Positions 7,435-55,475 of a stretch of DNA of 64,000 nucleotides are shown in pieces. The stretch spans positions 1,240,001 to 1,304,000 of the forward strand of contig CP049016.1 of assembly GCA_004376055.2 (NCBI GenBank), in the 5' to 3' direction. Position 1 is the stretch's first letter. Each line of letters starts with the position of its first letter. This DNA comes from Nitrospirales bacterium LBB_01. GTDB lineage: Bacteria; Nitrospirota; Thermodesulfovibrionia; Thermodesulfovibrionales; Magnetobacteriaceae. The notes beneath the pieces were generated by a model that saw nothing but the letters and a program-made list of their open reading frames with translations, searched no databases and was not told the DNA's origin. The position numbers and the translations under genes were made by a program.

Positions 7435-7628
7435 TTGCCTATGCAGTTAACTCCACTAATGGAGGAACTGGATTCCTGCCTCCGCAGGAATGACAAGAAA
7501 AGAAAGTCACCCCCTCTGTCATTCCCGCCTCCGAGCAGGAATCCAGTTCTTTTTCCAATTAAAAAAAAATAGAAACCTACCTCCTTAGAATCCTGAAAAA
7601 CCTCTACCGGAGTTAACTCAATAAGCAT
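7435..7628. repeat. Full-length REPIN-like repeat element (copy 1)
   Basis: A 194-bp unit fills most of the 364-bp gap before ftsH. It begins TTGCCTATGCAGTTAACTCC and ends GGAGTTAACTCAATAAGCAT, so the ends share an inverted GTTAACTCC. The core (7468-7546) is two hairpins: TTCCTGC..GCAGGAA, then an inverted TTCCCGCC..GGAATCC-type arm. The left and right flanks recur almost unchanged at 52718-52943. Translation on the minus strand gives an open frame that is a shadow. Confidence 0.85.
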
Positions 7629-9525: not shown

Positions 9526-10354
9526 AAACTACACACTGAACTTATCACATAAAACCCTCATTATGGGGGTGCTAAATATAACCCCTGATTCATTTTCCGA
9601 TGGCGGCGTCTATTTTGAAAAAAACCGCGCAATAGAGGGCGCAATTCAAATGGTAGAAGACGGCGCTGATATTATTGATGTTGGAGGGGAGTCAACCCGG
9701 CCGGGCGCTAAAGAAGTCACAGCAGATGAGGAAATAAGTCGCGTAATTCCGGTTATAGAGGCAATCGCTCAACACATAAACGTGCCGATTTCAGTTGATA
9801 CGTATAAGGCACAGGTGGCGCACGAGGCGTTAAGCTCAGGGGCATCTATGGTTAATGATATAAGCGGCCTCAGATTTGACAAAGATATGCCTAAGACCAT
9901 TGCAGAAGCTCATGGAGCGGTATGTATTATGCACATACTGGGCACACCGCAAAACATGCAAAATAACCCGCACTATGACGATTTATTCGCTGAGATTGGC
10001 AACTACCTAAATGAGGGAATAAATATTGCACTGTCTGCCGGAATCTCTGAGGCAAGCATTGTGATTGACCCGGGGTTAGGCTTTGGTAAAACTATTAACC
10101 ATAATCTCCAGATTTTAAGAGGACTCCATAGATTTAAACAGCTTGGAAAACTGCTTTTGATTGGCACCTCCCGCAAATCCTTTATCGGGCATATTCTCGG
10201 TGGCCGTTCTGTTGACAAAAGACTGATGGGAACCGCTGCAACTGTTGCAATTTCTATTCTTAACGGGGCGTCAATTGTGCGGGTGCATGATGTTAAGGAG
10301 ATAGCCGATGTGGTGCGTGTTTCGGATGCGATAGTGAGAATACCAAATGCCTAA
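9509..10354 (+). CDS. folP: Dihydropteroate synthase
   Basis: Condenses p-aminobenzoate with 6-hydroxymethyl-dihydropterin diphosphate in folate synthesis; target of sulfonamides. The 281-residue protein has the pterin-binding motif [14 protein letters not shown] near residue 20, then [11 protein letters not shown] and a C-terminal GTSRKSF. The TTG start at 9509 lies inside the end of ftsH. A later in-frame ATG sits within the conserved motif and is too short to be the start. The ftsH-folP order is common in many bacteria. Confidence 0.95.
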
Positions 10355-10359
10355 AAAAC

Positions 10360-10433
10360 TTTATCCGCAGATGACACAGATGAACGCAGATAGAAAAATC
10401 TTTAAATCTGCGAAAATCTGCGCAATCTGCGGA
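10360..10433. repeat. CGCAGAT-family inverted doublet
   Basis: A forward unit (TTATCCGCAGAT, then two further CAGAT-type steps at about 10-bp spacing) is followed after an AT-rich spacer by an inverted unit (ATCTGCG three times, ending TCTGCGGA). The whole can fold into one long hairpin. It starts right after the folP stop and may end its transcript. Orientation of the two arms matches that bracketing the GxxExxY gene at 40509-40958, but without a gene between them. Confidence 0.8.
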
Positions 10434-19276: not shown

Positions 19277-19399
19277 TTGTGGTTTAGCATAAACTGGGCA
19301 AATCCTTTCCGTTGTTAAAAGTTCTGCTTCTTTCAACGCATTATACTTAGCTTTTTTAGTGGCCACTAACTATCAATTCGGAAGCATAATCATACCAAT

Positions 19400-19563
19400 T
19401 TGCGCTCAAAGATATAAATAAAAAACTGGATTCCTGCCTTCGCAGGAATGACAAGAAGATAAGGAATGGCAAGAGAGAGGAGTTACGCCACTTAGTCACC
19501 GACCCTCCTCTTTTCTTACCGCCTTTCCTCTTTTGTCATTCCCGCCTACGAGCGGGAATCCAG
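19400..19563. repeat. REPIN-like repeat element
   Basis: Part of a 542-bp gap (19202-19743) with no gene. The left flank (TTGCGCTCAAAGATATAAAT) matches the flanks at 32076, 33245, 44962-45068, 48125-48297 and 55250. Hairpin arms begin at 19426 and end at 19563 with a longer (about 75-bp) middle. Elsewhere in the gap are the terminator at 19241-19276 and a 14-bp palindrome TTAGTGGCCACTAA near 19356. Confidence 0.8.
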
Positions 19564-19743
19564 TCCTTTTTCTCCACCATCATATTACCTTTTTGGAAGC
19601 AACTCAAATTAATCGTCTAAGAGCACTATTATTTTCAAATGATAAGAAAAGTTCTTGACATCTTTACTGATATTGTGTACAATACGCCATATTTATAAAC
19701 TTGTTTGGCCGCATATGATGTTAAAACAACAATGGAGGAGGAA

Positions 19744-23715: not shown

Positions 23716-23780
23716 TTTTCATCTGCGGACATCTGCGGATAAATCCTTTCCGTTTATATTGTAGTTATCTGCGGATAGAT
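23716..23780. repeat. CGCAGAT-family repeat
   Basis: Inverted-orientation unit (CATCTGCGGACATCTGCGGA at 23720-23739) followed by a partial second unit near 23766-23777. It fills the 85-bp space between the convergent FkbM and radical SAM genes, where it could serve as a bidirectional terminator. Confidence 0.7.
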
Positions 23781-31923: not shown

Positions 31924-32100
31924 ATGAGGGTTGTACTTGACTGTAACGTTATAATCTCAGCTGGACTAAATAACGGCACGTGCATGGAGTTGATAGAAGA
32001 GGTTGTTTTACATCACCAGTTGTTTCTCTCTCAAGGGATAGTTGATGAATACCATGAGGTAACTTCAAGGGTTAATACCGAGTTGCGTTCAAAGACATAA
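31924..32100 (+). pseudogene. PIN-domain toxin truncated by a repeat insertion
   Basis: The frame starts MRVVLDCNVIISAGL, the first acidic motif of PIN ribonucleases, and continues to DEYHEVTSR. From about 32076 the sequence is the end of a REPIN-like element, which adds a few foreign residues and a TAA at 32098-32100. The catalytic C-terminal acidic residues are lost and I see no continuation beyond the element, so the toxin should be inactive. Confidence 0.65.
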
Positions 32101-32259
32101 ATAAAAAACTGGATTCCTGCCTTCGCAGGAATGACAGAGAGAGGGGTTACGTCCCTTTGTCATTCCCGCCTACGAGCGGGAATCCAGTCCTTTTACAGGG
32201 GAATCCCCTTTAGGGGAGGCTGATAGAAAACCCTATTTCAGAGTTAACTCAATAAGCAT
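32076..32259. repeat. Full-length REPIN-like repeat element inserted in a PIN gene
   Basis: 184 bp. The left end TACCGAGTTGCGTTCAAAGA recurs at other copies; the right end GAGTTAACTCAATAAGCAT matches those at 7628 and 52943. The hairpin doublet is 32109-32187. A nested AGGGGAATCCCCTTTAGGGG palindrome follows (32198-32217). The rest of the gap to 32368 holds nothing I recognise. Confidence 0.82.
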
Positions 32260-33238: not shown

Positions 33239-33244
33239 CTTACA

Positions 33245-33474
33245 ACGAGTTGCGCTCAAAGACATAAATAAAAATGGATTCCTGCCTTCGCAGGAATGAC
33301 AAGAAAATAAGGAATGACCTCCCCTAAAGGGGATTCCCCTGTAAAGGAATGACAAGAAAAAGAATTGCCTCCCTTTGTCATTCCCGCCTACGAGCGGGAA
33401 TCCAGTCCTTTTTTTGTCATTCCCATGAAAATGCGAAACCAGTTTTTTATTAGCGGAGTTACCTCTATAAGCAT
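33245..33474. repeat. REPIN-like repeat element with nested palindrome
   Basis: Left end ACGAGTTGCGCTCAAAGACA, doublet 33275-33405, right end GGAGTTACCTCTATAAGCAT. A CCCCTAAAGGGGATTCCCCT palindrome is embedded at about 33321-33340. It fills the space between convergent genes at 33238 and 33535. Confidence 0.8.
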
Positions 33475-36896: not shown

Positions 36897-37015
36897 ACAC
36901 TGTATTATATGGAGGAAAAGGTAAAAAAGACAACGTCCACTGCAGGGCAAACGCATTAGAGAAAAAAGCAGCAAAAGACTTCTCTGTTGCAAGGCAGAAT
37001 TTTTAGAGAAAAGGA

Positions 37016-37094
37016 CTGGATTCCCGCTCGTAGGCGGGAATGACAAGGAAGGATATGTCTTTTTTTTGTCATTCCTGCGCAGGCAGGAATCCAG
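37016..37094. repeat. REPIN-like doublet
   Basis: CTGGATTCCCGCTCGTAGGC hairpin arm and inverted TTCCTGCGCAGGCAGGAATC arm with about 28 bp between. It lies in the 314-bp gap between divergent genes (36897-37210), inside the spurious upstream extension of the methyltransferase frame. Nothing else is seen in that gap. Confidence 0.8.
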
Positions 37095-37210
37095 TTTTTT
37101 AGCGAAGCTACACTGCATTGGCAATATATTATTATTTCCTGTTAAATGCGGTTGCCCTGACGTCCCCTGCTTGATTTGTCTCAGCACAATGGTCTAAACT
37201 TGAGGTATCG

Positions 37211-38023: not shown

Positions 38024-38035
38024 TGAAAGAACTCT

Positions 38036-38080
38036 TAAAGAGATTTATCCGCAGATTGCGCAGATGAACGCAGATAAAAG
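38036..38080. repeat. CGCAGAT-family repeat
   Basis: Forward unit ATTTATCCGCAGATTGCGCA then GATGAACGCAGATAAAAG, three CGCAGAT-type steps spaced about 10 bp. It lies just after the transketolase stop. Confidence 0.75.
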
Positions 38081-38146
38081 CAATAATTCGTATTAGTTAT
38101 AGTGTATATTCCAAAGAAATCATAGTCCGTCATTTAATCAGTGTAA

Positions 38147-38455
38147 TCATGGTTCGGATTGCCTCGCTTGCAGCCATTTTTTTAAAGAAGCCTGACTCTC
38201 ACCTGATGGCTTGCCGGATAATAACCCCTCAACGCTAATGTCCTCGTCGATATCAGCCCAGTGGATACCATACCCTTTGCTTATCAACCTCCAGTTGTTA
38301 CGTTGAGCTTCAGAGGCATAACACAAACGCGGAAACCACTCTAAAGGAACAAAAATTGTCCTACCATCGCTCAAGTCCACGCTTAATGTGTCCTCTGTTA
38401 CAGTTATGTTCTCAGCATACGGGATTTTCATTTCAACTGCCAAAGAAAAACTCAT
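38147..38455 (-). CDS. DUF2442 protein (antitoxin-like)
   Basis: 102 residues. It has the DUF2442 pattern: an N-terminal strand part with SDGRTIFVPLEWFPRL, then GIHWADIDEDISVEGLL. Overlaps the upstream DUF4160 gene by 23 bp. DUF4160-DUF2442 pairs are widespread and behave like toxin-antitoxin modules by organisation; function here is inference. Confidence 0.85.
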   Translation of the reverse strand: MSFSLAVEMKIPYAENITVTEDTLSVDLSDGRTIFVPLEWFPRLCYASEAQRNNWRLISKGYGIHWADIDEDISVEGLLSGKPSGESQASLKKWLQARQSEP

Positions 38456-38672: not shown

Positions 38673-38819
38673 CTTCTCTATCCGATATACCTTTCCTGTA
38701 CTTTAGCGAAACTCCCAAGCATGGCAGTATTGTAACGATTTTGGCGGGAGGTTGTCAAATTAAGGGGGATTGTCTGAACTGTGATTAATATCATTACAGG
38801 AATACTATGATTAAAGGAC

Positions 38820-38855
38820 AAAGAATTTTATCCGCAGATTGCGCAGATGAACGCA
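38820..38855. repeat. CGCAGAT-family repeat
   Basis: Forward unit TTTTATCCGCAGATTGCGCA then GATGAACGCA. The surrounding 38673-38920 gap holds nothing else recognised, though its right part resembles the 38080-38146 gap (a shared ATCATAGTCC.TCATTTAATC stretch), so both may belong to a longer repeat. Confidence 0.75.
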
Positions 38856-38920
38856 ATAATTCGTGTTAGTTATAGTGTGTATTCCCTAAGAAATCATAGT
38901 CCATCATTTAATCAGTGTAA

Positions 38921-39883
38921 TCATAGTTCAGATAATCTTTTAACAGTGCTCCACAGTGCGGACACAGTGTCCGCATGTTTACCGCACACATAAAAAGCTC
39001 TGCCGCCATCGGCAACCGTCCGTACAAGCATGGTTTTCCACGGCCGGAAATAGTACGGCGGGGAGTCTTTCGGCGCCTCTTTGGTAAAATCAGCCGGCAA
39101 TTGATGTAAATCGCACACAAGGGTTGTAAAATCGTTGATTCGTTCGCCGCTCTGATGCGCCCGGTTTCGCACCATACTGAGCGCCTTTAAAAACACCTCT
39201 GGAGCCATCACGGCACTCCCAAAATTCATTACTACCCCGCCCTCAAGAGCACTGACCACCTGCGTAAATCTCAAAAAATCCATATACGACAGCGCTCCTG
39301 CTGCCGCCCCGTCATAATTGGGAAACTCATTTATGATGTCATACCCAATCCCCACATGCACTGTGGCAGGAATATTTAGGCGATACGCCGCCGCATAGAG
39401 GCTTATATCCTTATGCGGAAAGTCTCCCTCATAAATTGCCTTCCCTATTGCCCCCCCATAACCGGAGGAATTGTTGTCTCTATACGCTGCATTGATTATA
39501 TCGTTTATATATCCAGTTTCTTTCCAAAGTCCAAATTCTCCGCATTTGATGTATTTGGCGACACTTTCCGTAGTGGCTCCTATCAGTGCAAATTCGTAAT
39601 CGTGAATGACACATGAGCCGTTTCCGGCAATGCACGTTATATAGCCCCGCTCCATTAAGTCTATGATGAAGCGCTGAACCCCTGAGCGGATTACATGCCC
39701 TCCCATCATAAGAATTACGGCGGCTCCGCGCTCCTTTGTGCTTATTATATGAGAGGCGGCCTCTGAAATAGCAGGAATAGGAGGGTTATCATTGGCGGTA
39801 AGAGGCAGTATGACGTCAATGTTCAAATCATGCACACGCTCCGAAAGCGCCTGAAGTTTTAGGTATTCTCTGTTAAAATACAT
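38921..39883 (-). CDS. Uncharacterised protein with deoxyhypusine-synthase-like NAD-binding features
   Basis: 320 residues, no membrane segment. Conserved-looking stretches are ILMMGGHVIRSGVQRFI, IAGNGSCVIHDYEFALIGAT, HVGIGYDIINEFPNYDGAA and YYFRPWKTMLVRTVADGG. The glycine- and histidine-rich pattern recalls the deoxyhypusine synthase-type NAD fold, but I cannot name the family. Proteins like this sit in heptose/sugar-nucleotide clusters, and RfaE2-, HddA- and HddC-like genes follow here. It is flanked on both sides by DUF4160/DUF2442 pairs. Confidence 0.6.
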   Translation of the reverse strand: MYFNREYLKLQALSERVHDLNIDVILPLTANDNPPIPAISEAASHIISTKERGAAVILMMGGHVIRSGVQRFIIDLMERGYITCIAGNGSCVIHDYEFALIGATTESVAKYIKCGEFGLWKETGYINDIINAAYRDNNSSGYGGAIGKAIYEGDFPHKDISLYAAAYRLNIPATVHVGIGYDIINEFPNYDGAAAGALSYMDFLRFTQVVSALEGGVVMNFGSAVMAPEVFLKALSMVRNRAHQSGERINDFTTLVCDLHQLPADFTKEAPKDSPPYYFRPWKTMLVRTVADGGRAFYVCGKHADTVSALWSTVKRLSEL

Positions 39884-40466: not shown

Positions 40467-40491
40467 GAAAAGATTTTATCTGCAGATTTAT
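40467..40491. repeat. CGCAGAT-family partial repeat
   Basis: AGCGAAAAGATTTTATCTGC and following GATTTATC, a partial forward unit lying 18 bp left of the full unit that bounds the GxxExxY gene. Confidence 0.6.
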
Positions 40492-40506: not shown

Positions 40507-40908
40507 TTAAAAGATTTTATCCGCAGATTGCGCAGATGTTCGCAGATGAAGGACTAATCGTTTGAATTGTAGTTTGTCAGTGCCAAAATTTAACAATAAT
40601 GCTTTATTTAACCCAGTTGCTTTAAGATAATTGATTACCTGCGATTCTTCAACAGAGGATAATTTATTTAATGCTTTTAATTCTACAACAATATGTTCAA
40701 AACAAATAAAATCGGCTTTATATAAAACATTCAATTGTTTGTTTTTGTAGTAAACAGGTATTTCTTTTTCTCTTGAAAATATAATGTTACTATTTTTGAA
40801 TTCTATTTCTAATGCCTCCAAAAAACCGCCTCCAAGCTCTGAATGTACTCTCATCGCAGCACCTATAATGTTATAAGTATCCTCATCTCTTTCATCTGTA
40901 TCTCTCAT
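40507..40908 (-). CDS. GxxExxY family protein (PD-(D/E)XK-like)
   Basis: 133 residues. HSELGGGFLEALEIEF is the family's defining region, with the second half of the G-x-x-E-x-x-Y motif changed here to F. FICFEHIVVELKAL holds the E-x-K pattern expected of a PD-(D/E)XK nuclease-like core, and LKATGLNKALLLNFG is also typical. The last ~12 residues are translated from the flanking CGCAGAT repeat, which provides the stop. Both ends of the gene lie against inverted copies of this repeat. Function is unknown for the family. Confidence 0.85.
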   Translation of the reverse strand: MRDTDERDEDTYNIIGAAMRVHSELGGGFLEALEIEFKNSNIIFSREKEIPVYYKNKQLNVLYKADFICFEHIVVELKALNKLSSVEESQVINYLKATGLNKALLLNFGTDKLQFKRLVLHLRTSAQSADKIF

Positions 40909-40958
40909 TTTTATCTTTCATCTGCGGATATCTGCGTCATCTGCGGATAGAATCCTTT
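40509..40958. mobile_element. Candidate element: GxxExxY gene between 44-bp inverted CGCAGAT repeats
   Basis: Left arm 40509-40552 and right arm 40915-40958 match in inverted orientation at 37 of 44 positions. Each has three CGCAGAT-type cores at about 10-bp spacing. Between them is only the GxxExxY gene. The arms occur alone elsewhere in the window, and one gene-less doublet with the same arm orientation is at 10360-10433. Mobility is inferred; no target duplication could be defined. Confidence 0.55.
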
Positions 40959-40980: not shown

Positions 40981-41006
40981 CTTTCATCTGCGGATAGAAT
41001 CCTTTA
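40981..41006. repeat. CGCAGAT-family partial repeat at a gene 3' end
   Basis: CTTTCATCTGCGGATAGAAT then CCTTT, an inverted partial unit. It supplies the last codons and the TGA of the RfaE2-like gene. Confidence 0.65.
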
Positions 41007-42272: not shown

Positions 42273-42378
42273 AACGTACCCATAGTTAATATAATAAGCG
42301 GCAGGGGTTAAAAAATCAATGGCACCTTAAAACCACAGTATTTACATAGTATTTACATTTGAGTTAAAATAAGGTAAG

Positions 42379-42510
42379 TTGCCTATGCAGTTAGCTCCGC
42401 AAACAAAAAAATGGCTTCCTGCTTTCGCAGGAATGACAAGAAAAAAAGGAATGACAAAAAAAAGAAATAGCCCCCCTTTGTCATTCCCGCCTAAGAGCGG
42501 GAATCCAGTC
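42379..42510. repeat. REPIN-like repeat element
   Basis: Left end TTGCCTATGCAGTTAGCTCC as in the copies at 7435 and 52718; doublet 42412-42507. The right flank is lost: the CopG/BrnA-like gene begins about 25 bp later. The rest of the gap between rfbF and this gene holds nothing recognised. Confidence 0.78.
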
Positions 42511-42532
42511 CTTTTAAATGAGAGATTATATT

Positions 42533-43821: not shown

Positions 43822-44343
43822 TTACCCAAAAATATCCTTAATATCAACCTCAAGGCCTTCAATAACTTTTGATGCGACAACGCCTTCAAGCTCTGCGGAT
43901 GAGTGTTTTTTGTATTTATCGTTTTCTATTATAAAAATCTCTACGGTCAGAAGCTCAGGGATTACAATCCAATACTCCGGTACTTTGTACTTCTCATAGA
44001 TAGCCTTCTTTATTTCGGTGTCTTTTTCATACGTGCCCGGAGACACTATCTCACAGACCATATCAGGCACCCCACGTATCCAATCCTGAAAGATGGACAT
44101 GTTTTCATTTCGTATAAACAGTATATCGGGTTGGAGTCTGTTTTCACCCTCTTCAAATATAACGTCAAGAGGGGCAAGGTACACATTGCCCAGTGTTTTT
44201 TGTATGACGAATTTATCTAATTGTCTAAACACATTCCCCACTATGTTTTGATGTTTTCCAAATGGGCTTGGCCCCATAATCTCCTCCCCATTGATAATCT
44301 CAGTTAAGTCAAGGTCTCGTTCTATAGTTTGCATAAGTGCCAT
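43822..44343 (-). CDS. Uma2 family endonuclease-like protein (DUF820)
   Basis: 173 residues. LQPDILFI, VPDMVCEIVSPGTYEKD, KKAIYEKYKVPEYWIV are the usual Uma2 segments, with the acidic and lysine residues of the restriction-like fold. The family spreads widely in environmental genomes, often in many copies; its role is unknown. It lies 4 bp upstream of the SDR gene. Confidence 0.88.
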   Translation of the reverse strand: MALMQTIERDLDLTEIINGEEIMGPSPFGKHQNIVGNVFRQLDKFVIQKTLGNVYLAPLDVIFEEGENRLQPDILFIRNENMSIFQDWIRGVPDMVCEIVSPGTYEKDTEIKKAIYEKYKVPEYWIVIPELLTVEIFIIENDKYKKHSSAELEGVVASKVIEGLEVDIKDIFG

Positions 44344-44418
44344 AGGAGTATTTTACCACAGGCAGTTGCCAAGGAGCAATCCGCAGATGAGGGAATAGAA
44401 ACCACAGATGAACACAGA

Positions 44419-44460
44419 CAAGGAACTATCCGCAGATTGCGCAGATGTTCGCAGATAAAA
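44419..44460. repeat. CGCAGAT-family repeat
   Basis: Forward unit GAACTATCCGCAGATTGCGC then AGATGTTCGCAGATAAAA. A degenerate unit (AATCCGCAGATGAGG, then ACCACAGATGAACACAGAC) lies just to the left, 44378-44419. Confidence 0.75.
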
Positions 44461-47021: not shown

Positions 47022-47113
47022 TTTGCTAATGATACCTCTTGGGGCGTCAGTTTTTCAAGGAATGCTCTATCTGTCTTTTTTGTCCTTACTTTTATCATTC
47101 CCGCCCCCTCCTT

Positions 47114-47197
47114 TGTCATTCCCGCCCACGAGCGGGAATCCAGTCTTTTTAAGAGTCTTTAAGGGATTATGGATTCCTGCTTTCGCAGGAATGACAA
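47114..47197. repeat. REPIN-like pair in everted orientation
   Basis: TTCCCGCC arm (47114-47143) ends in CCAG, then after 26 bp comes TGGATTCCTGC (47170-47197). Arms therefore face with their CCAG/CTGG sides inward, opposite to the other solo doublets and like the arms around the GIY-YIG gene. A partial TCATTCCCGCC lies just left. Confidence 0.75.
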
Positions 47198-47272
47198 AAG
47201 AAAAAAATGCGCCCTTTTCAAGAATGCCTTACTTTCAGAATAACCATTTGGTTTGTGCATTGGGAGCACACT

Positions 47273-48013
47273 GTGAACGCTGACATTGTAATCCTGTGCG
47301 GTGGGGTTGGCAGCCGTCTAACGCCCTTAATTTCTGACCGCCCAAAGCCCATGGCAGATATTAACGGAAAGCCGTTTCTTGACCTTGTCATCAATTATTA
47401 TAGAAGTTTCGGAGCTTGGCGGTTTATTCTCTGTACAGGGCACATGTCGGATTTTATAGAAAACTATTACAAAGCGAATACTCAGGATGTTGAAATTGTG
47501 CTCTCAAAAGAGAACACGCCGCTTGGTACAGCTGGAGGCGTTAAAAACGCCGCTAAGATGATTAAATCGGAACCCTTCTTTGTAATAAACGGGGATTCGT
47601 TTTGTAAAGTTGACGTCTCTGACTTTTACGCATTCCATCGGCGAATGTCACCCTCAGTCTCTATGGCAGTTACAGAGGTTAAAGATGCGCATTCTTACGG
47701 CAGCGTCATTATAGATACCTCACAGAGGATAACCGGTTTTATGGAAAAATCGGAAGTATCTGAAAAAGCATATATCAACGCTGGAATCTATCTTTTTAAT
47801 AACACCGATGTGCTTAATCTAATTCCTTCTGAGACAAAATATTCGCTTGAGTATGACTTTTTCCCTAAAATTGCCGGCTCAGGTGCCTTCTACGGATATA
47901 TAACGAATGCGCCGCTGTTTGATATCGGTACTCCGGAAAGATATGAAAGAGCGCTCAGGGAGTTAAAAGAGATTCATCTGCAGATGACGCAGTTGCGGAT
48001 AAAAAAGTTTTAA
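47273..48013 (+). CDS. HddC-like sugar-1-phosphate nucleotidyltransferase
   Basis: About 246 residues from the GTG at 47273, which has GGGAG upstream; a 22-codon extension to 47207 is less likely as the family starts just before ILCGGVGSRLTPL. RPKPMADINGKPF, VINGDSF, FDIGTPERYERA are family motifs. With HddA it would make a nucleotide-heptose. The last ~11 residues (LQMTQLRIKKF) are encoded by CGCAGAT-type repeat sequence that supplies the stop. Confidence 0.86.
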   Translation: MNADIVILCGGVGSRLTPLISDRPKPMADINGKPFLDLVINYYRSFGAWRFILCTGHMSDFIENYYKANTQDVEIVLSKENTPLGTAGGVKNAAKMIKSEPFFVINGDSFCKVDVSDFYAFHRRMSPSVSMAVTEVKDAHSYGSVIIDTSQRITGFMEKSEVSEKAYINAGIYLFNNTDVLNLIPSETKYSLEYDFFPKIAGSGAFYGYITNAPLFDIGTPERYERALRELKEIHLQMTQLRIKKF

Positions 48014-48056
48014 AAGACTCTTTAATCCGCAGATGACGCAGATGAACGCAGATATA
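48012..48056. repeat. CGCAGAT-family repeat
   Basis: Forward unit CTTTAATCCGCAGATGACGC then AGATGAACGCAGATATAAA. A degenerate inverted unit lies at 47982-48009, inside the 3' end of the preceding gene. Confidence 0.75.
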
Positions 48057-48124
48057 AAATAAATGCAACTCGGTATTAACTCAGGTACATAGTTTTATGT
48101 CAGCTAAAGATACATCAGAAAGGA

Positions 48125-48297
48125 CTGGATTCCCGCTCGTAGGCGGGAATGACAAGGGGAAGAGGCGGGAATGACAAAAAAGAGTCACCACTCTGTTTTT
48201 TCCTATCATATTATTTTCTTGTCATTTCTTTTTTCTTGTCATTCCTGCGAAGGCAGGAATCCATTTTTTTATTTATATCTTTGAACGCAACTCGGTA
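48125..48297. repeat. REPIN-like repeat element (reverse orientation)
   Basis: Doublet 48125-48263 with a long middle that holds extra half-arms (GGCGGGAATGACA, TTGTCATT), then the flank ATCTTTGAACGCAACTCGGT matching the left end at 32076. It occupies most of the 290-bp gap between the HddC-like and HepT-like genes. Confidence 0.8.
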
Positions 48298-48303
48298 TGA
48301 GCT

Positions 48304-50020: not shown

Positions 50021-50370
50021 CTTGTCATTCCTGCAAAAGCAGGAATCCAGAAAGATCATTCCACTCTGGATTATATTTTTCAATAAGTTCTATTTTCCAT
50101 TGTCGTTTCCACTTTTTAATCTGCTTTTCTCTTTCTATTGCGACGTCTATATAGTTCGATTTCTCATAATAAACAAGATTATGGACTTTATATTTTTTAG
50201 TAAAACCTTCTGACATATCACTTTGATGTTCGTGAACCCGTTTTATTAAGTCAGATGTTACACCTACGTATAACGTCCCATTTTTCTTGTTTGCCATTAT
50301 ATATACATAATATTGCTTCATGTGATGCTTCCTAAAAGAACTGGATTCCTGCTTTCGCAGGAATGACAAG
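50021..50370. mobile_element. Candidate element: GIY-YIG gene between 30-bp inverted REP arms
   Basis: The left arm 50021-50050 and right arm 50341-50370 are inverted copies identical at 29 of 30 positions; each folds as TTCCTGC..GCAGGAA. Only the GIY-YIG gene lies between. The same arms occur without this gene at 11 other loci in the window. The layout parallels RAYT genes flanked by REP sequences. Mobility is inferred. Confidence 0.6.
50025..50321 (-). CDS. Small GIY-YIG nuclease
   Basis: 98 residues from the ATG at 50321; the 16 codons further upstream come from the right REP arm. YYVYIMANKKNGTLYVGVT is the GIY-YIG motif (YVYIM..LYVGV), with KRVHEHQ, YYE and the REKQIKKWKRQWKIELIE stretch of this small subfamily. 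The last ~10 residues (DLSGFLLLQE) are encoded by the left REP arm, which provides the TGA. It is a stand-alone domain with no UvrC parts. Confidence 0.9.
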   Translation of the reverse strand: MKQYYVYIMANKKNGTLYVGVTSDLIKRVHEHQSDMSEGFTKKYKVHNLVYYEKSNYIDVAIEREKQIKKWKRQWKIELIEKYNPEWNDLSGFLLLQE

Positions 50371-50443
50371 GAGAAAACGAATGCTGCCCTTTATAACGAA
50401 TGCTGCCCTTTTCTTGTCATTCCCGCCTACGAGCGGGAATCCA
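50341..50443. repeat. REPIN-like doublet next to the GIY-YIG gene
   Basis: CTGGATTCCTGCTTTCGCAG arm at 50341-50370 and inverted TTCCCGCC..GGGAATCCAG arm ending at 50443, with 41 bp between that contains a repeated GAATGCTGCCCTTT. The left arm doubles as the right boundary of the GIY-YIG unit. Confidence 0.82.
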
Positions 50444-50469
50444 GTCTTTAAGAAAGCATTCCTATTATT

Positions 50470-52632: not shown

Positions 52633-52717
52633 TCTAACCTCCTTATATGTATTACTTGTATTATAAATAAAACTCTGCATTAGAATCAACAGCAGAGCCA
52701 ATTTAGAAAAAGAGATA

Positions 52718-52943
52718 TTGCCTATGCAGTTAACTCCACTAATAGAGAAACTGGATTCCTGCCTCCGCAGGAATGACACTCCCCTAAAGGGGATTCCCCT
52801 GTAAAGGAATGGTAGGAAAAGAAAGTCACCCCCCTCTGTCATTCCCGCCTCCGAGCGGGAATCCAGTTCTTTTTCCACTTAAAAAAAATAGCTACCTCCT
52901 TAGTATCCTGAAAAACCTCTACCGGAGTTAACTTAATAAGCAT
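52718..52943. repeat. Full-length REPIN-like repeat element (copy 2)
   Basis: 226 bp; ends as at 7435-7628, including GCCTATGCAGTTAACTCC on the left and ACCGGAGTTAACTTAATAAG on the right. Doublet 52751-52866. Differs from copy 1 mainly by a ~33-bp insert with the CCCCTAAAGGGGATTCCCCT palindrome. Another copy of that palindrome is at 52963-52982. Both are in the 419-bp gap 52633-53051. Confidence 0.85.
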
Positions 52944-55244: not shown

Positions 55245-55249
55245 GGCCA

Positions 55250-55437
55250 TGTTACGTTCAAAGATATAAATAAAAAAACTGGATTCCTGCTTTCGCAGGA
55301 ATGACAAGAAAAAAAGGAATGACAAGAAAAAAAAGGAATAACAGAAAGAGAAAAGCATTCTTTCCTTTTGTCATTCCTGCCTACTCCTTTTGTCACCGAC
55401 CCCCTTTTGTCATTCCCGCCCACGAGCGGGAATCCAG
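55250..55437. repeat. REPIN-like repeat element
   Basis: Left end GTTACGTTCAAAGATATAAA, arms starting at 55279 and ending at 55437, with a long middle containing repeated AGGAATGACAAGAAA and TTTTGTCAT half-units. Separates the ACP gene from the convergent MaoC-SDR gene. Confidence 0.8.
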
Positions 55438-55475
55438 TCCTTAAAATAAATGACGCACCTCTCTATCGGAGGAGG

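Follow-up and report, generated by a model that had tools for sequence, protein, structure and literature searches.

The window analysed here, a 64,000-nucleotide stretch of the genome of Nitrospirales bacterium LBB_01, contains a GxxExxY gene enclosed by two arrays of the heptamer CGCAGAT in inverted orientation (Table 1). In a profile search the gene was a clear member of the family by both curated models, TIGR04256 (E = 7e-35, 119.8 bits against a curated cut-off of 35) and PF13366, or PDDEXK_3 (E = 1e-31, 110 bits against a curated cut-off of 22), and the protein matched PD-(D/E)XK models only. A search of the whole genome returned this single copy of the family. Each arm is 45 nt long and the two are 84% complementary, in agreement with the original prediction, made from the letters of the window, of 44-bp inverted arms matching at 37 of 44 positions. 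The same prediction had placed nothing but a GxxExxY gene between the arms; the gene is indeed there, but the left arm does not lie outside it and instead overlaps the 3' end of the coding sequence, the protein C-terminus being ...LRTSAQSADKIF.

Table 1. Features of the window, with positions counted from its first letter.
Feature	Position	Strand	Remark
GxxExxY gene, 133 aa, PD-(D/E)XK family	40507..40908	-	PF13366 and TIGR04256 profile matches
Downstream arm (gene orientation), 3 CGCAGAT words, spacing 9 and 10 bp, TTTTATC in front	40509..40553	+	Overlaps CDS 3' end
Upstream arm (gene orientation), 3 CGCAGAT words, inverted with respect to downstream arm	40914..40958	-	
Partial extra copy, outer end of upstream arm	40984..41005	-	Repeat family D2
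Partial extra copy, outer end of downstream arm (TATCTGCAGATT)	40468..40488	+	Repeat family D3
N-terminal arm MRDTDERDEDT of the protein	40876..40908	-	
Site of in-frame 5-residue deletion, Y of GxxExxY lost	40815..40816	-	Alignment with relatives
Dispersed array, left member of gene-less inverted pair	10345..10395	+	
Dispersed array, right member of gene-less inverted pair	10406..10431	-	
Dispersed CGCAGAT array	23721..23773	-	Between two gene 3' ends
Dispersed CGCAGAT array	38029..38079	+	
Dispersed CGCAGAT array	38812..38862	+	
Dispersed CGCAGAT array	44410..44460	+	Upstream of Uma2 gene
Two adjoining dispersed arrays	47958..48057	+	First one degenerate
49-bp direct repeat	38111-38159, 38885-38933		After two CGCAGAT arrays
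Uma2-type gene	43822-44343		PF05685
REP-type repeat copies	7466-7555, 19390-19572, 32075-32196, 33240-33412, 37009-37101, 42377-42517		
REP-type repeat copies	47106-47205, 48119-48300, 50307-50453, 52717-52875, 55245-55446		

A gap of five residues, the Y included, opens just behind the conserved E of GxxExxY in the window copy; these residues are present in all 21 relatives aligned there, and the copy thus fails to show an intact G-x-x-E-x-x-Y motif. Its arms and its N-terminal arm are intact despite this deletion, which adjoins the catalytic site. Taken together, the alignment suggests that this copy may be inactive and is possibly decaying. The last Thr of the N-terminal arm is the residue that, under the rule described below, predicts G at position 5 of the word, and CGCAGAT obeys this rule. 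In the comparison for empty sites, synteny was broken around the position of the window element in two genomes (G062 and G096).

CGCAGAT occurs 37 times in the window against 5.7 expected (6.5-fold), a count reached in none of 100 shuffles. Using pattern searches for the genome-wide word counts, we found 90 adjacent CGCAGAT pairs (1-4 bp apart) in the 3.27-Mb genome, forming 57 arrays, and none for the reversed control pattern. Excluding the two arms, 17 of 55 arrays lay within 80 kb of the GxxExxY gene where 2.7 were expected (P = 6e-10). The shuffles, the reversed control and the enrichment over control ORFs given below together ruled out a chance origin of the inverted repeat. Arrays with at least two words were all intergenic in the window except one overlapping the GxxExxY gene, so that the predicted position of single arms, mostly at gene 3' ends, was roughly right with this one exception; lone CGCAGAT words within the genes of the window look like chance occurrences.

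Other repeats share this window. Near a DUF2442 gene, a 49-bp direct repeat (92% identity) follows two of the CGCAGAT arrays, a pattern that the duplication of a stretch including an array would leave. A second abundant family, of REP type (GTCATTCCCGCCTACGAGCGGGAATCCAG and relatives), is present in many copies and in both orientations. The Uma2-type gene has matches of about 70% identity at dozens of places in each related genome, and its family is therefore strongly amplified in this lineage.

Across the family, about 190 GxxExxY relatives from dozens of phyla were collected, and nearly every copy lies between inverted arrays, each with a word of its own. Within the phylum of the window genome, the family was found in 42 of 296 sampled genomes with 1-9 matches per genome, and the flanks of 30 of these copies had the same layout with differing words (CACAGAG, CGCAGAG, CACGGAG, CACGAAG, CGCAAAG, CACGGAT, ACAGGAT and others). 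A further 80 loci from dozens of phyla, including one from the archaeon Methanothrix, were bracketed in the same way. The database scan for these further relatives used a narrower alignment rather than one spanning all subfamilies, and protein references containing stops were left out. CGCAGAT itself was ruled out as the signal, the word differing from element to element. There is thus strong support for the suggestion of a family living on these repeats, which proves far more general than first proposed, except that the partner of the protein is a copy-specific word and not CGCAGAT as such.

The comparison that the original prediction had named as decisive, repeat enrichment near GxxExxY genes as against other genes, was run with an automatic detector, and the enrichment was found: arrays flanked 65 of 78 GxxExxY genes versus 248 of 2738 other ORFs on the same contigs (Fisher P = 1e-51). 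Both sides were occupied in 42 of the 78 GxxExxY genes and in 13 of the 2738 control ORFs, and beyond these 13 no other gene in the loci examined shared the two-sided bracketing. With a strict definition (inward CxCxRA-type arrays on both sides), 121 of 164 elements were recovered; of 16 strict misses that we read by eye, 15 had matched inverted arms built of other units, such as CCACGGAAGAGGCGGATA or CATGGATTTGCAGGATGGACAGGAT, and one (L105) was ambiguous. A divergent member in G329 (L299, E = 2e-23) had no arrays visible in the stretch read and is a possible true exception to the bracketing.

An arm usually consists of three words (183 of 240 arms) placed 8-10 bp apart, with the consensus TTNRC at the outer end followed by CRCNRAK, and the median distance from arm to conserved domain is about 30 nt upstream and downstream alike. 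Over 24 nt, the two arms of an element share 81% identity, compared to 61% for same-word arms of other elements (permutation P = 5e-4), and both arms have identical spacing in 89 of 118 elements. Being matched beyond the word and equal in spacing, the two arms behave as a unit, in the manner of terminal inverted repeats. At one locus (L035, on contig C108 of G263) the arms beside the GxxExxY gene have expanded into long tandem series on both sides.

The word of an element can be predicted from its protein. We compared the consensus word with domain residue 2 (L[T/S]EKII, start of helix 1) in 124 elements: Thr went with G at word position 5 in 80 of 80 cases, and Ser or Ala went with A in 31 of 36. 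Over all protein columns and word positions, this pair ranked first. The next-best associations were also N-terminal: G at position 5 went with an acidic residue at the following position, and word position 4 with residues -6 to -3; many CACGAAG elements start with M[E/K/D]FD-x-L-S. Word position 7 (G/T) covaries with many protein columns in a subfamily-wide manner and was left out as evidence of recognition. The rule holds with the downstream arm alone, that is, across the whole gene body, and linkage between the N-terminus and the upstream arm is therefore no explanation for it.

To place these changes on a phylogeny, we built a protein tree from which the first domain columns were left out; on this tree word position 5 requires at least 11 changes and the residue at least 14. 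Counting all branches, about 10 independent residue and word changes agree and none is opposed; the tree is weakly resolved because the protein is short, and on strongly supported branches there are only 2 independent residue changes, neither opposing. The observed phi of 0.90 compares with a maximum of 0.52 in 5000 simulations of the word on the tree. We then read 26 more loci, of which 21 were scorable for residue and arms, and all 21 obeyed the rule (16 T/G and 5 S-or-A/A; Fisher P = 5e-5); these were scored by eye, 3 of them have off-consensus units that were aligned visually, and some are related to earlier elements. From this covariation we infer that the N-terminal arm is the part of the GxxExxY protein that reads the word.

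Gene-less arrays of the cognate word are dispersed in the genomes that carry the family. At least 5 CACAGAG pairs were present in 25 of 42 gene-positive genomes versus 10 of 254 gene-negative ones (P = 2e-17), for a total of 1475 CACAGAG pairs against 95 for the reversed control. Among family-carrying genomes the dispersed word tracks the word of the resident gene (on average 36 arrays as against 7, P = 4e-8, after subtraction of gene-linked arms): 90 CGCAGAT pairs and none of CACAGAG or CACGAAG were counted in the window genome, and 95 CACGAAG pairs in G152, whose gene has CACGAAG arms. Equal repeat content in genomes without the family, the other outcome that the original prediction had said would count against it, was also looked for, and family genomes were found to hold far more arrays, with a few array-rich exceptions that have no detectable GxxExxY gene (G284 with 153 CACAGAG pairs, G016 with 126 and G064 with 107). 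Many arrays and no detectable gene are also found in G062, a congener of the window genome. Among the loci read in the three exceptions (L142-L171), G064 shows numerous uniform inverted pairs without a gene, at a distance of about 160 bp, and G016 long tandem arrays. A REP element is nested within a gene-less pair of arms at L263 in G048 and at L157 in G284.

Presence and absence at orthologous intergenic sites was seen at three loci (L233, L261 and L212). At L233 a full element is present in G048, and G015 (flanks 84% and 90% identical), G080, G024 and G084 have a cleanly empty site; no array is present at the empty sites, and gene and arms therefore come or go together. At L261, a full element in G015 corresponds in G048 to a gene-less CGCAGAG pair enclosing a REP (flanks 95% and 94%), with remnants elsewhere and nothing in 4 genomes. 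The L242 site is occupied in G015 and G080 by a gene-less inverted pair of another word. In one family (f23), elements stand at orthologous positions in several genera. Next to ubiA, CACAGAG arms occur with the N-terminus YFH[RK]ELT in 3 genomes and CACGGAG arms with LHHE[DE]LT in 2 genomes, the word having switched in both arms together with the N-terminus; at other orthologous sites of this family the proteins are only about 40-60% identical and the words differ. No target-site duplication was identified in the available site pairs, whose flanks are too diverged to define the ends to the base.

An AlphaFold2 model of the protein was confident (pLDDT 96). Among solved structures the Cas4 protein SSO0001 comes closest in fold (Z = 9.9, rmsd 4.4 over 100 residues), lambda exonuclease was among the best Foldseek matches, and no relative by sequence was matched in the PDB. 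In 53 sequences, E27, D67, E77-x-K79, Q91 and Y95 are invariant or nearly so, an arrangement that we take to be consistent with a PD-(D/E)XK site that has the QxxxY motif seen in RecB-type nucleases; there is no cysteine among the invariant or near-invariant columns.

Relatives were found in 0 of 50,697 phage records and on 8 of 72,556 plasmids, all 8 predicted to be non-mobilizable. The plasmid copies that we inspected have matched arms too, with the exception of a Gemmatirosa copy, which is a fragment. On a Sphingomonas plasmid (L306, positions 371-799), the GxxExxY gene, with its CGCGAAG arms kept, is flanked by fabD and fabG within a cluster for fatty-acid synthesis. In IMG/VR, a profile-based scan returned one relative and two single-protein scans returned none. 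This sole relative on a viral contig (L262), a contig of only putatively viral nature, has matched inverted arms (CACAAAG/CACGAAG). The absence from phage records and the near-empty viral scans ruled out a phage-borne origin.

Among known systems, the closest parallel is the REPtron (TnpA-REP/RAYT), likewise a gene for a small DNA-processing enzyme bordered by inverted short repeats, with many dispersed gene-less copies (REPs, BIMEs and REPINs on the REPtron side) and with enzyme and repeat cognate to each other. TnpA-REP genes are rare on plasmids and mostly stable in place, and REPs can concentrate near the gene (PMC8266576); GxxExxY similarly behaves as a chromosomal gene, rare on plasmids and in this unlike insertion sequences, keeps its place for the most part and can have its arrays clustered around it. 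The enzymes differ, however, PD-(D/E)XK with a Cas4/RecB-like model here and HuH with a Y1 tyrosine in the REPtron, as do the repeats, spaced direct heptads with an outer TTNRC end here and a GTAG-tagged palindrome there; GxxExxY also occurs in as many as nine diverse copies in a genome, every one of them with a word of its own. As the element has neither of the defining features, HuH protein and GTAG palindrome, we did not file it as a REPtron.

With Cas4 and RecB nucleases GxxExxY shares the PD-(D/E)XK fold and the catalytic D, ExK and QxxxY arrangement. Cas4 has four conserved cysteines for an iron-sulfur cluster (PMC5704561), whereas GxxExxY, at about 123 aa, is without this module, needs no CRISPR context and is flanked by arrays. 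Like MITEs and insertion sequences, these elements have paired terminal inverted repeats, gene-less derivatives and presence or absence at orthologous sites, but they have no known transposase fold and are almost never on plasmids. Intergenic heptamer clusters in scattered lineages also recall the TAACTGA direct repeats of Beggiatoaceae, which are contiguous, of one fixed word and mostly located just before start codons (PMC4679880); those lack a partner gene and have almost no inverted pairs, whereas GxxExxY words are 8-10 bp apart and element-specific. A full-text search of the open-access literature found no paper on GxxExxY, TIGR04256 or PF13366 with flanking repeats or a recognition code. 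The bracketing, the element-specific word that follows the protein and the dispersal of this word in the same genome point to an undescribed partnership of presumed nuclease and repeat with its own recognition code.

We consider it probable, at roughly two chances in three, that the gene and its two inverted arrays constitute one compact REPtron-like element, whose nuclease would recognise the repeat through its N-terminus and probably spread it. The unit would measure about 450-500 bp; the protein would recognise the word with its N-terminal arm, and each repeat arm would probably take several protomers. The RecB/Cas4-like PD-(D/E)XK site may then nick or process DNA at the arms, which would generate and spread gene-less copies, often nearby. 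The gene itself would be mainly vertically inherited and would occasionally be gained, lost or replaced, the sites remaining the same. The binding and cutting of DNA by the protein and the active mobility of the element are presumed. That the protein mobilises the repeats, as had been proposed from the window, is plausible, although the window copy may itself be defective.

The strongest competing explanation, which we nevertheless find unlikely, makes GxxExxY a regulator whose binding to its own arms and to the dispersed arrays would use them as operators or as structural sites, in autoregulation or in a regulon, with ordinary recombination spreading the arrays and the nuclease site used rarely or otherwise. 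Covariation indeed indicates recognition and not cutting, the upstream arm, whose median distance in front of the domain is about 30 nt, has an operator-like place, and arrays persist in genomes where the gene is not detected. A regulator would however leave unaccounted for an array behind the gene that is as regular as the front one and inverted to it, the near-invariant catalytic residues, the many dispersed arrays at gene 3' ends, and the gene-less inverted pairs and empty sites that are typical of mobile repeats.

It is less likely still that the arrays are moved by something else and that GxxExxY merely came along, as an adapted passenger or as a nuclease of the immunity type captured between the arms. 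No passenger would require the word of the arms to follow residues of the protein over dozens of phyla, as it does here; the dispersed words track the resident gene, and the 13 control ORFs aside, no second gene is bracketed in this manner. What such a passenger would readily accommodate are the array-rich genomes without GxxExxY and the gene-less pairs that enclose other DNA, for example a REP.

Homing, in which GxxExxY would cut gene-less arrays and be copied into them by recombination, appears more improbable again: a small nuclease with sequence recognition, and gene-less pairs sharing a site with full elements, would suit it, but the empty L233 site contains no uninterrupted recognition site of the kind expected for a homing endonuclease element, gene and arms are gained or lost jointly, and each arm is a complete array rather than half of an interrupted site. 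Finally, that inverted arrays and covariation are a statistical accident or simple co-inheritance, for which the short protein, the weakly resolved tree and the only two independent pairs on strongly supported branches could be invoked, has a negligible chance of being correct and is already largely contradicted by the enrichment, by some 10 agreeing changes with none opposing, by tree simulations that never reach the observed phi and by the 21 new elements that all fit.

Returning to the reading of gene and arrays as one REPtron-like element, we lean, by a narrower measure, towards extending it to the whole family: GxxExxY proteins would be the enzymes of very widespread, undescribed minimal mobile repeat elements of bacteria and archaea, with a readable N-terminal DNA code of about 8 residues that evolves in step with the word, and whose specificity would be predictable and perhaps reprogrammable. 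An uncharacterised family thereby gains a likely substrate, the probable recognised word being readable for almost every gene, which makes the function of GxxExxY directly testable. The same reading would account for the arrays of CACAGAG, CGCAGAT and similar words dispersed through many environmental genomes, and it would represent a second, unrelated solution to the REP-RAYT arrangement. It would also supply dozens of natural pairs of protein and DNA word from which to learn the recognition code of a nuclease of about 125 residues.
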